A DNA stretch of 50,247 nt from Armatimonadota bacterium (GTDB taxonomy: Bacteria > Armatimonadota > Fervidibacteria > Fervidibacterales > Thermosaccharophagaceae). The notes beneath the pieces were generated by a model. It did not search any database. It was not told the DNA's origin and was given only the letters and a program-made list of their open reading frames with translations. Position numbers and translations under genes: made by a program. Shown piece by piece: positions 4,048 to 49,055 of this stretch (positions are counted from its first letter, which is position 1; every line of letters starts with the position of its first letter). The stretch covers positions 1 to 50,247 of the forward strand of contig JANXAS010000022.1 in assembly GCA_025062195.1 (NCBI GenBank), written 5' to 3'.

Positions 4048-4497
4048 TTGGCGGTTAAAGGGGCGTGCATTATTTCAACTTCAAGAGCGCTGTTAGCTTT
4101 AAAGGTTGCGAAAGAGATAGCTAAGTATCTTGTTGAGCGGCATCATCCGCAGTTGCTCAAATCTATACCTAAAACCACATTTGATGGAGGGTGGCTCTCC
4201 TGAGCCACCGAAAAATTCTCAGTGCATCAGGAGATGCACCTTCCGGAAAAATCATTGCTGCTCTTTGGCTCTCAAGATTGATGCGAAGCAAAAGAAGGAA
4301 GCAATATTGACATCATGCTCGTTATGGACCACGGTGACAGAGGACCAATTGATGCAATTGTTCAAGTGGAGCATGAGTTGGGCGAAAGGTTTCTATAGCT
4401 TTCAAGGATGCTTGACATAAAGGTGATGGAGCCAGATTTTCACAGGCTGGTTGCATGGTTTAAAAGTGTTTGTAGTAAGGCGAACAACGGATTTTAG
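4048..4497 (+). pseudogene. Decayed MNT-type nucleotidyltransferase gene
   Basis: A single reading frame reads as a nucleotidyltransferase of the minimal MNT type. It has a helical N-terminal part (VAKEIAKYLVERHHPQLLKS), then LLLFGSQD and CEAKEGSNIDIMLVMD, which match the family motif FGSRARGEA..SDIDIMV, then a run ending DIKVMEPDFHRLVAWF. The frame carries three internal stops: TGA at 4201-4203, TGA at 4279-4281 (where the motif's second Arg is expected) and TAG at 4396-4398. The first stop lies inside a palindromic insert (4190-4239) that separates the N-terminal helices from the FGS motif. Because all parts remain in one frame, decay is by point changes plus an in-frame insert. Intact members usually pair with a HEPN antitoxin/toxin partner; none is visible here. 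The remaining gap up to 4600 holds no other gene. Confidence 0.65.
4189..4240. repeat. Pair of short palindromes in opposite orientation
   Basis: GGTGGCTC-TCCT-GAGCCACC at 4190-4209 is a perfect 8-bp stem with a 4-base loop. GTGCATC-AGGA-GATGCAC at 4222-4239 is a perfect 7-bp stem. The two loops, TCCT and AGGA, are complementary, so the second palindrome looks like an inverted copy of the first (GGTG..TC TCCT GA..CACC). They are separated by CGAAAAATTCTCA, similar to the spacers of the hairpin array at 48053-48388. This is a REP/BIME-like element lying within the nucleotidyltransferase remnant. Confidence 0.6.
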
Positions 4498-46192: not shown

Positions 46193-46954
46193 GTGAAGGC
46201 GATAGTGCTTGCCGCAGGGTATGCAACAAGGCTTTATCCGCTCACACTGAATAAAGCAAAGCCGTTGCTTACCATTGCTGGCAGACCAATGATTGAGCAT
46301 GTGCTCATGCGAATTGCACCGCTTGAAGAAGTTGATGAAGTGCATATCATTACTAACGATCGCTTCTATCCTGACTTTGCTTCGTGGCTTAGTTCATTCG
46401 CCCCTTCATTCTGCAAGCCCATATTGCTTCATAACGATGGCACAAGGACGAACGAGGAGAGAATGGGTGCTATTGGCGACTTAGCTTTTGTCGTTAGCTC
46501 AAGCAGCATTAACGAGTATTGTCTCGTCGTGGCTGGCGACAACATCTTTGACTTTGACTTGCGCGGGTTTGCCCAGTTCGCATCTGAACACGGCACCACT
46601 GTCGGATTATACAGAGTGAACAACCTTGAACTGGTAAAGCGATACAGCGCTGTTGAAGTTGATGAATCATGGCGCATTATCCATTTTGAGGAAAAGCCGA
46701 AAAACCCAAAGACAAGCCTCACAGCGATATGCCTTTACATATTCAAGCCGCCTCACTTAAGGTTGCTTGACGAGTATCTTGCCGAAGGACAGCCCAAGGA
46801 CGAACCGGGATATCTGATTCAATGGCTACATAAGCGAGTTGATGTTTACGGCTATCCGTTTGTCGGAACATGGTTTGATATCGGAGACCATGAGAGCCTG
46901 CGATTGGCTGATGAAGTTTTCAGGTCACTTTTGGAGGCAAGTGGGATACAGTGA
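46193..46954 (+). CDS. Sugar-phosphate nucleotidyltransferase
   Basis: A 253-residue GT-A-fold NTP transferase of the glucose-1-phosphate thymidylyl/uridylyltransferase type. The N-terminal loop LAAGYATRLYPLT is followed by KAKPLLTIAGRPMIEH, VVAGDNIFDFDL (metal Asp), FEEKPKNPKTSLTAICLYIF and GTWFDIGDHESL. It lacks any C-terminal beta-helix, so it is not a GlmU-like bifunctional enzyme. It activates a sugar-1-phosphate as a nucleotide sugar, probably feeding glycosyltransferases such as those at 22-27 kb; base and sugar are unknown. I use GTG 46193 (MKAIVLAAG) after GGGGGTG. Its 3' end overlaps the convergent tsaD by 35 bp. Confidence 0.9.
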   Translation: MKAIVLAAGYATRLYPLTLNKAKPLLTIAGRPMIEHVLMRIAPLEEVDEVHIITNDRFYPDFASWLSSFAPSFCKPILLHNDGTRTNEERMGAIGDLAFVVSSSSINEYCLVVAGDNIFDFDLRGFAQFASEHGTTVGLYRVNNLELVKRYSAVEVDESWRIIHFEEKPKNPKTSLTAICLYIFKPPHLRLLDEYLAEGQPKDEPGYLIQWLHKRVDVYGYPFVGTWFDIGDHESLRLADEVFRSLLEASGIQ

Positions 46955-47972
46955 CATCCTCTAAATCCCAAACGGCGATTGCGTCCACATCCAAATTGGC
47001 TGTCAATCCCCTTTCAAGCCTGTAATAACCAGCACAAGCTGTCATTGCAGCATTATCCGTGCACAGTATAATTGGCGGTATTACAAGCTTTATGCCGTAG
47101 CCCGATGTAAGCTCATTCATTCTCTGGCGCAACCTTCTGTTTGCTGCCACTCCACCAACAACTGCCAATGCATTTGCTTTGGTCATCTGTATAGCTCTCT
47201 CAGTTTGTTGTATGAGCATATCTACTACGGCTTCTTGAAAACTTGCAGCTATGTCTGGGACGGTGTATTGCGAAGCGCTCTTGTCGGCGAGAATGTCACG
47301 ATAGCCCTCAACGAAGCGCGCCACCGCCGTTTTCAACCCGGCAAAGCTGAAGTCAAGTGATCCACCCATGTCAGCTCTCGGGAAGGCAATAGCGCTTGGG
47401 CTGCCATTTGTTGCAGCCTTGTCAATTGCAGGGCCGCCCGGAAAGCCCAACCCGAGCACCCTTGCAACCTTGTCAAAAGCCTCACCAGCAGCATCGTCCC
47501 TTGTGCGCCCGAGGACTTCGTATTTTCCCAAGTCATGCGCATACACGAGTTCGGAATGACCGCCAGAAACTATGAGGCATAGGAAGGGGAAGTCAAGCTC
47601 ATTATCGGCGAGGAAGGCTGAGAGCATATGCCCTTCAAGGTGGTTAACAGGGATCAAAGGTTTGTTAAGCGCAGCGCATATAGCTTTTGCAACCGCCAAT
47701 CCAACTGCAAGTGAGCTTATCAATCCCGGCCCGCATGTGACGGCGACACCATCAATGCTGTTAAGCTCTACAGATGCTTCCTTTAGCGCCAAGTCAAGTG
47801 CCGGGAAGAGGAGTTCCACATGTTTCCGTGAAGCGATCTCGGGAACGATGCCGCCAAAGTGCTTGTGCCAATCAGCTTGCGAGCAAACGATATTGGAGAG
47901 TATTGTCCTGCCATCTCGCACAAGCGCAACTGATGTCTCATCACAAGATGTCTCAATGCCGAGCACCACCAT
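46920..47972 (-). CDS. tsaD: tRNA N6-threonylcarbamoyladenosine transferase TsaD
   Basis: A 350-residue ASKHA-fold protein that transfers threonylcarbamoyl to A37 of tRNAs reading ANN codons, with TsaB, TsaC and TsaE. The N-terminal VLGIETSCDETSVA is typical; the metal ligands His111 and His115 are in HLEGHMLSAF, and the third ligand is the Asp of CTDNAAMTA. SFAGLKTAVARF and GGVAANRRLRQRM are present. The start is ATG 47972 (MVVLGIETS) with AAGGGGTG upstream; GTG 47984 falls in that site. Its last 35 bp overlap the end of the nucleotidyltransferase gene on the other strand. Confidence 0.97.
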   Translation of the reverse strand: MVVLGIETSCDETSVALVRDGRTILSNIVCSQADWHKHFGGIVPEIASRKHVELLFPALDLALKEASVELNSIDGVAVTCGPGLISSLAVGLAVAKAICAALNKPLIPVNHLEGHMLSAFLADNELDFPFLCLIVSGGHSELVYAHDLGKYEVLGRTRDDAAGEAFDKVARVLGLGFPGGPAIDKAATNGSPSAIAFPRADMGGSLDFSFAGLKTAVARFVEGYRDILADKSASQYTVPDIAASFQEAVVDMLIQQTERAIQMTKANALAVVGGVAANRRLRQRMNELTSGYGIKLVIPPIILCTDNAAMTACAGYYRLERGLTANLDVDAIAVWDLEDVTVSHLPPKVT

Positions 47973-48052
47973 ATTCGTATGCACCCCTTATGCCATTGGT
48001 AACGGTCATCTTTTGAGCTATCATGCGGTTAAGTTATAAGTGATGCTTCCAA

Positions 48053-48388
48053 TCGTAGGGCAAGCCTATTGGTTTGCCAAACTTCGGCTTTTTTCCTTTT
48101 GTAGCATGGTTCGTAGTGAACCATAAAGAGATAGCGTAACGGCGTTTTCAACGGCACTCCACTTCGTTTCGTGCCTTACTACAAACTGCCCCATTGGATT
48201 TTTTCGGCTCGGCAGTAGCCTCGCCCCCCAATTTTTCGTCACGATTTTTTTCGTCATCTCGTAAGGCAAGCCTACTGGCTTGCCGAATTTTTTCGTCCCA
48301 TTTTTCGGTTGGGCAGTAGCCCGACCCTCGAATTTTTCTGTCACAATTTTTTCTCATTCGTAGGGCATGCCTGTGGCTTGCCGAACTT
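48053..48388. repeat. Array of alternating hairpins, about 100-bp period
   Basis: Two hairpin types alternate. Type A: GGCAAGCC-TATT-GGTTTGCC (48059-48078), GGCAC..GTGCC (48153-48175, weak), GGCAAGCC-TACT-GGCTTGCC (48265-48284), GGCATGCC-TGT-GGCTTGCC (48364-48382). Type B: ATGGTTC-GTAGT-GAACCAT (48106-48124), GGCTCGGC-AGTA-GCCTCGCC (48206-48225, two mismatches), GGTTGGGC-AGTA-GCCCGACC (48307-48326). Between them lie T-rich spacers such as AATTTTTCGTCAC. The last two B+A units are clearly homologous. Open frames on the minus strand here have protein sequences that simply repeat with the DNA, so I treat the whole 492-bp gap (47973-48464) as non-coding. Confidence 0.75.
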
Positions 48389-48464: not shown

Positions 48465-49055
48465 CTATCGCTTTGAGATCCGCCTAAGTATGGAGCGCAA
48501 GCGGTCATAGTCATCCTTAATGAGGCGTGACAGTTCCTTCCCTACCGACACAAGATATGCGTGGTCGTAATCATGTGCTTCCCAAGCATGTCTACAGGCG
48601 GCTATGAGCAACTCATCCCTTATGCCCTTTCCAGACGCCGAGATGAGTCTTAGGTAGTCAAACTCCTCGGTGAAGCGCCTGACCTCGTCGCTATCGCATT
48701 CGTAAACGAAGCTATGCAACTTCGGCGGTATCGGTGGAAGTGCTTGTCTCATAGCACCCTCAAACTCGTAACCGACTATCAGCCCTCTGAAGTCCGTCTT
48801 TAGCAGTTCAAAGATTTGTGGTTGTTCCTCGCGTAACTCCTCCTCGGTCTTGCCATATGCCATTGGGCGGCGTGTCGGGTCAATGCTGTGAGTGATTATC
48901 TCATAAACGAGGGCGTAGATTGGCGGCTCTGATTCAACTCGGACAAGTGAGCCAAAGGGAGGTGAGGTGTGCAACTTGCAGCACTGCGCCACAAACTCAG
49001 TCGTGCAACTCTCAATCACCTCGCCAACATGAAGCAAAACTCTGCTCTCCTTCAT
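48465..49055 (-). CDS. HAS-barrel domain protein
   Basis: A 196-residue protein resembling the HAS-barrel proteins common in cyanobacteria. The N-terminal barrel includes VGEVIESCTTEFVAQCCKLH, PPFGSLVRVE and IYALVYEIITHSIDPTRRP. Next come LREEQPQIFELLKTDFRGLI, PPIPPKLHSFVYECDSDEV, FDYLRLI and the end KDDYDRLRSILRRI. The HAS barrel is the N-terminal domain shared by HerA helicases and ATP synthase subunits; here it stands without an ATPase. Such proteins are often encoded beside a HerA-like ATPase, and a NurA gene is in this window, but HerA is not seen. The start ATG has no strong ribosome site (GAGGGGTGCAATTTAGACC lies before it). Function unknown. Confidence 0.7.
   Translation of the reverse strand: MKESRVLLHVGEVIESCTTEFVAQCCKLHTSPPFGSLVRVESEPPIYALVYEIITHSIDPTRRPMAYGKTEEELREEQPQIFELLKTDFRGLIVGYEFEGAMRQALPPIPPKLHSFVYECDSDEVRRFTEEFDYLRLISASGKGIRDELLIAACRHAWEAHDYDHAYLVSVGKELSRLIKDDYDRLRSILRRISKR

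Follow-up and report, generated by a model that had tools for sequence, protein, structure and literature searches.

A hairpin array in an uncultured Armatimonadota bacterium is probably a mosaic of REP elements, most likely spread by a RAYT transposase of the same genome

We analysed a stretch of DNA of 50,247 nucleotides (the window) which carries an array of hairpins at 48053-48388. We conclude, with a probability of about 90%, that this array is a BIME, that is, a mosaic of REP elements in alternating orientation placed in the gap between two genes of the same strand. The hairpins would be REP copies facing alternating directions, spread most likely by a small transposase of the same genome, a REP-associated tyrosine transposase (RAYT). 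The anatomy of the element, its dispersal and the presence of the RAYT gene therefore indicate that an uncultured lineage carries a repeat of a known kind, and not a new RNA.

Results

Both the hairpin listing of the window and a covariance model bear out the presence of the array. The listing contains six hairpins (48059-48078, 48106-48124, 48206-48225, 48265-48284, 48307-48326 and 48364-48382), where the initial annotation had counted up to seven. Two alternating types had also been described; the alternation is real, but a single consensus fits both types once all copies share the same orientation, so that they are one element read in opposite directions. This element, of about 24 nt, has an 8-bp stem closed by a TACT or TCCT loop and preceded by a G(G/T)AG head. 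The array contains five matches to the covariance model, for which some of these copies had served as input, four with E≤4.2e-5 and one weak, and a 24-nt pattern for subfamily A matched twice in the window and never in 100 shuffles of it.

The copies fall into subfamilies, with consensus sequences TC-GTAG-GGCAAGCC-TACT-GGCTTGCC-GAATTTTT (subfamily A), TC-GGAG-GGTCGGGC-TACT-GCCCGACC-GAAAAAT (B) and TT-GGAG-GGCGAGGC-TACT-GCCGAGCC-GAAAAAT (C). The array begins with an A copy on the plus strand (48055-48078; head GTAG, stem GGCAAGCC/GGTTTGCC, loop TATT; E=4.2e-5). It continues with a C copy on the minus strand (48206-48229; head GGGG against the consensus GGAG, stem GGCGAGGC/GCCGAGCC with tandem G-A mismatches, loop TACT; E=1.1e-7), an A copy on the plus strand (48261-48284; head GTAA, perfect stem GGCAAGCC/GGCTTGCC, loop TACT; E=5.6e-7), a B copy on the minus strand (48307-48330; head CGAG against the consensus GGAG, stem GGTCGGGC/GCCCAACC with one wobble, loop TACT; E=1e-6) and a degenerate A copy on the plus strand (48360-48382; head GTAG, 3-nt loop; E=0.045). 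The copies of the window are thus slightly degenerate, with a T-T mismatch in the last A copy and a T-G wobble in the B copy. It had been proposed that the left and right arms change together, which holds between subfamilies but not for every arm pair then listed: GGCAAGCC/GGCTTGCC pairs perfectly and GGTTGGGC/GCCCGACC contains the T-G wobble, while GGCATGCC/GGCTTGCC, the stem of the last A copy, contains the T-T mismatch and has therefore changed in one arm only.

The remaining hairpin, ATGGTTC/GAACCAT at 48106-48124, had been assigned to the same series and in fact belongs to a different element. It lies inside a 93-bp composite (48098-48192, no strand assigned) with inverted GTAG-like ends (TTTGTAG ... 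CTACAAA), placed after the first A copy and before the C copy. The composite occurs at 8 sites with 91-97% identity, and in the seven sites that we aligned homology stops near its ends, with unrelated flanks beyond (on the left at contigs 106 and 66, on the right at contig 79). Its right half falls in another GTAG-tagged REP family, with sequences such as GTTCGTAGTTAGCCACGAAGCG and 57 head-pattern matches in 829 kb. The array is thus mosaic, combining two REP families, and hybrid BIMEs have been described before (PMC2817692). This second palindromic family (GTTCGTAGTTAGCCACGAAGCG... and GTTCGTAGTAAGGCACGAAGCG...) occurs elsewhere, among other places at L151:17236-17613, L152:13865-14410 and L157:11067-11371 (contig 82), and its members often form inverted pairs. 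A third repeat family may exist as well, since palindromes resembling GCTACGGACTTTAGTCCGTAG lie near REP arrays (L159:2463, L168:14155 and L174:3688).

The suspected kinship with a palindrome pair near 4190-4239 was confirmed. The pair, at 4186-4244, belongs to the same family and consists of a plus-strand copy with a different stem (4186-4209; head GGAG, stem GGTGGCTC/GAGCCACC, loop TCCT; E=2.8e-5) and its inverted partner on the minus strand (4221-4244; head GGAA, stem GGTGCATC/GATGCACT, loop TCCT; E=4e-4).

The array is flanked downstream by tsaD (46920-47984, minus strand; Pfam TsaD, E=2.5e-100), a gene and not a repeat, whose product is at best 54% identical to named relatives, and upstream by a 196-aa ORF on the same strand (48465-49055) with no Pfam match. 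REP copies were absent near tsaD in three same-order relatives and near a partial tsaD match in a fourth. This absence fits a lineage-specific insertion of the array, although one of these genomes lacks copies altogether.

A genome-wide search for copies, as suggested in the initial annotation, showed that the family is widely dispersed. The 351-bp array has 73 BLAST matches in the 3.42-Mb genome, and modelling the 42-nt unit by covariance, with 150 candidates scored, raises the count to at least 148 copies. With the same model we found copies in three relatives of the same order (at least 119, 14 and 61) and in three more distant ones (37, 13 and 3); the other 24 relatives searched had none. 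No match was obtained in phage and plasmid collections by distant DNA search. We then have a palindromic unit of 24 nt, within the 20-40 nt of REPs, in high copy number and mostly extragenic, and several such units close together in alternating orientation, which is the arrangement of a BIME.

Placement and orientation were analysed in a sample of 829 kb (40 stretches plus the window) containing 86 copies at E≤0.1, a density biased upwards because most contigs were picked for having matches. Clusters of copies lie mostly between genes in this sample, and 41 of the 46 pairs of neighbouring copies less than 200 bp apart are in opposite orientation. By mechanical ORF calls, 54 of 78 copies are outside ORFs of at least 100 aa, though such ORFs cover 81% of the sequence, and the ORFs that do hold copies are mostly short ones overlying arrays. 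Two copies, at L189:7178-7219 (ORF of 1085 aa) and L170:847-888 (ORF of 420 aa), fall within long ORFs and may be intragenic REPs. In the genome assembly (G000), REP arrays are located within a few hundred bases of the ends of contigs 3, 55, 79, 106, 112, 142 and 164, which suggests that the assembly breaks at the repeats and misses further copies.

Covariation over the copies was, as anticipated, well above that of shuffled sequences. The score of the eight stem pairs, computed over 53, 66 and 86 copies, lay far above the shuffled and slid controls, at 0.34-0.37 against 0.15-0.16 in the shuffles. Within subfamilies the picture is different: at paired positions we counted 2 compensatory changes, 41 pair-breaking changes and 32 G-T pairs, a count that compares copies sorted by stem subfamily and not orthologous sites, in which breaking changes are if anything under-counted since copies were found partly by a model that favours pairing, and in which some double changes are hidden because each copy was assigned to whichever subfamily consensus lay closest. 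Since compensation is so scarce inside subfamilies, the covariation mostly reflects the difference between them. It therefore seems that the mobile family as a whole maintains pairing, through recognition by its transposase, and that RNA selection site by site does not. This is the pattern expected if whole units diverge while having to fold for the transposase and individual insertions then drift.

These counts bear most directly on a rival reading, in which each hairpin is maintained by selection at its own site as a cis-acting RNA element (a terminator, an mRNA stabiliser or a regulator). The flanking genes share a strand and transcription may run through the array between them, folding is better than in shuffled sequences for both strands (z=-4.2 and -5.1), and one plus-strand hairpin is followed by a run of T. 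But terminator-like sites are at the level of chance (1 found, 1.0 expected), the single one is on the strand opposite to both genes, the units of one array face both ways, a search of the window against Rfam at the gathering score gave no match, and the scarcity of compensation within subfamilies is not what per-site selection would leave. We consider this explanation very unlikely. A secondary RNA role may exist, since REPs can acquire RNA functions by co-option. The initial annotation had offered selection on structure (RNA or cruciform) or spread of palindromic units; spread is favoured, as the REP/BIME family is dispersed and the genome also encodes a RAYT, while selection on RNA at each site lacks support because copies within subfamilies accumulate pair-breaking changes.

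A Pfam Y1_Tnp search at the default threshold found no Y1 transposase in this genome. A relaxed search gave one weak match (20.9, cut-off 23) to an ORF of 152 aa on contig 97 (L127:1384-1842, minus strand). This protein scores 88.4 bits against a cut-off of 80 with NCBIfam NF047646 (REP-associated tyrosine transposase), matches the solved TnpA-REP structure 4er8 with E=3.6e-11, and reaches only 15.4 with the IS200 family, whose cut-off is 55. It has an HLH motif at residues 66-68, and its Tyr123, which we take to be the catalytic residue, aligns with Tyr115 of 4er8. An AlphaFold2 model from the single sequence had a mean pLDDT of 44.5 and was set aside.

On both sides of the RAYT gene the covariance model finds copies of the family, about 15 in total, in alternating orientation. 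Judged by sequence, the locus is a putative REPtron, with an HUH Y1-type RAYT gene and flanking inverted REPs of a dispersed family. The arrangement of a RAYT gene flanked by REPs is the one described for REPtrons (PMC2817692, PMC3733652). The copies beside the gene are closest to subfamily C, with loop TCCT, and none of subfamilies A and B was seen there, so A and B may owe their spread to a different RAYT that has been lost or is missing from the assembly. The Y1/RAYT loci of the relatives held no copies of the family. One same-order relative (G001, the one with at least 119 copies) has a single Y1 gene (C41:29343-29672, locus L133) with no copy within about 1.5 kb, and its cognate RAYT may thus be lost or unassembled.

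In another reading the repeats are MITE-like, a DDE transposase or some other insertion sequence mobilises them, and the association with the RAYT is incidental. The 93-bp composite, with its inverted ends and its dispersal as a unit, speaks for this. Yet those ends are GTAG-like heads, the units are head-tagged hairpins of about 24 nt and not long terminal inverted repeats, and the same family lies on both sides of the RAYT, all of which makes this alternative highly improbable. Chance hairpins in an AT-rich gap can be dismissed, for although hairpins with 7-bp stems occur elsewhere in the window, the array has 73 BLAST matches in the genome, its sequence and head recur in 148 or more model copies, and the 24-nt pattern never matched in the shuffles.

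The head of the family is itself variable. It is GGAG in 75 of 109 copies and GTAG in 17; at position 2, 84 copies have G and 22 have T, while A3 (104 of 109) and G4 (100 of 109) are, like position 1, conserved. Degenerate heads (GYAG, GYRG, GTRG, GTMG) have been reported, and GGAG is absent from the text of that paper (PMC3733652). A literature search for GGAG heads together with RAYT found nothing relevant. Among the 82 copies whose head has G, 29 have C at the variable loop position, against none of the 20 with T, an association confounded by subfamily. A mostly GGAG head is a modest variant, and the one unusual trait of the family. It counts against the REP/RAYT reading, as does the Pfam Y1 score of the transposase. 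It is tempting to see here a REP superfamily whose guide-like head moved from GTAG to GGAG, retaining A3 and G4, with the loop shifting alongside, but we regard this as a rather doubtful reading. If true, it would illustrate how the specificity of a RAYT and that of its repeat shift in step.

Discussion

Our results can be accommodated in the following scheme. A REP is a non-autonomous unit whose single strand folds into a hairpin beside the G(G/T)AG head. The RAYT, a Y1 HUH enzyme encoded on another contig inside a similar array, would bind this hairpin and cleave nearby DNA, at CT in its studied relatives, the site being chosen by A3 and G4 of the head. Its action would spread REPs as singlets, doublets and mosaics. 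Subfamilies would have diverged as whole units that had to fold for recognition, which would explain why the stems differ, and single copies would drift after insertion. In the studied REPtrons, single-stranded REP hairpins are bound by TnpA-REP, which recognises the head together with unpaired features. Cleavage takes place at CT (or CA), guided by the head, and A3 and G4 are the pair proposed to select CT (PMC8266576). By analogy, the chemistry of the RAYT described here would be the same as in the studied REPtrons, and this enzyme presumably moved the copies of the window.

Modified REPs are known to retain their palindromes, suggesting selection for complementary mutations (PMC2817692), and most families split into sub-families with alternative complementary stem residues (PMC3733652). 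A literature search on REP covariation returned nothing relevant. The array shows that covariation from the divergence of mobile-element subfamilies can be separated from covariation due to RNA function, and advises caution in covariance-based RNA discovery. Under the REP/BIME reading, what looked like a structured array is accounted for by the past activity of a single-strand transposase in bacteria of an uncultured lineage. The family also provides a natural set of subfamilies, with GGAG heads, that could be used for testing how RAYTs choose their repeats.

Complementary-stem sub-families, mosaic BIMEs and RAYT-flanking REPs are already known. With the Y and Z units of E. coli and their TnpA-REP, and with the REPs of Stenotrophomonas, the array shares a layout of head plus 8-bp palindrome with a short loop (PMC2817692, PMC3733652, PMC8266576). 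Like GTAG-tagged REPs and BIMEs, it has sub-families with complementary stems, alternating arrays and hybrid mosaics, a mostly extragenic location, and a RAYT flanked by REPs/BIMEs. Unlike canonical GTAG REPs, its head is mostly GGAG and its TACT/TCCT loop is conserved, and in contrast to the RAYTs of known REPtrons its transposase has diverged below the Pfam Y1 cut-off, in a host from an uncultured lineage.

REPINs are REP doublets that act as mobile units. The composite at 48098-48192 resembles them in its inverted GTAG-like heads at both ends and its dispersal as a unit, but its halves carry different stems and only 8 copies were seen. IS200/IS605 insertion sequences have a related Y1 HUH transposase and hairpin ends, whereas the repeats described here carry no gene and the transposase falls below the IS200 cut-off and above that for RAYTs.
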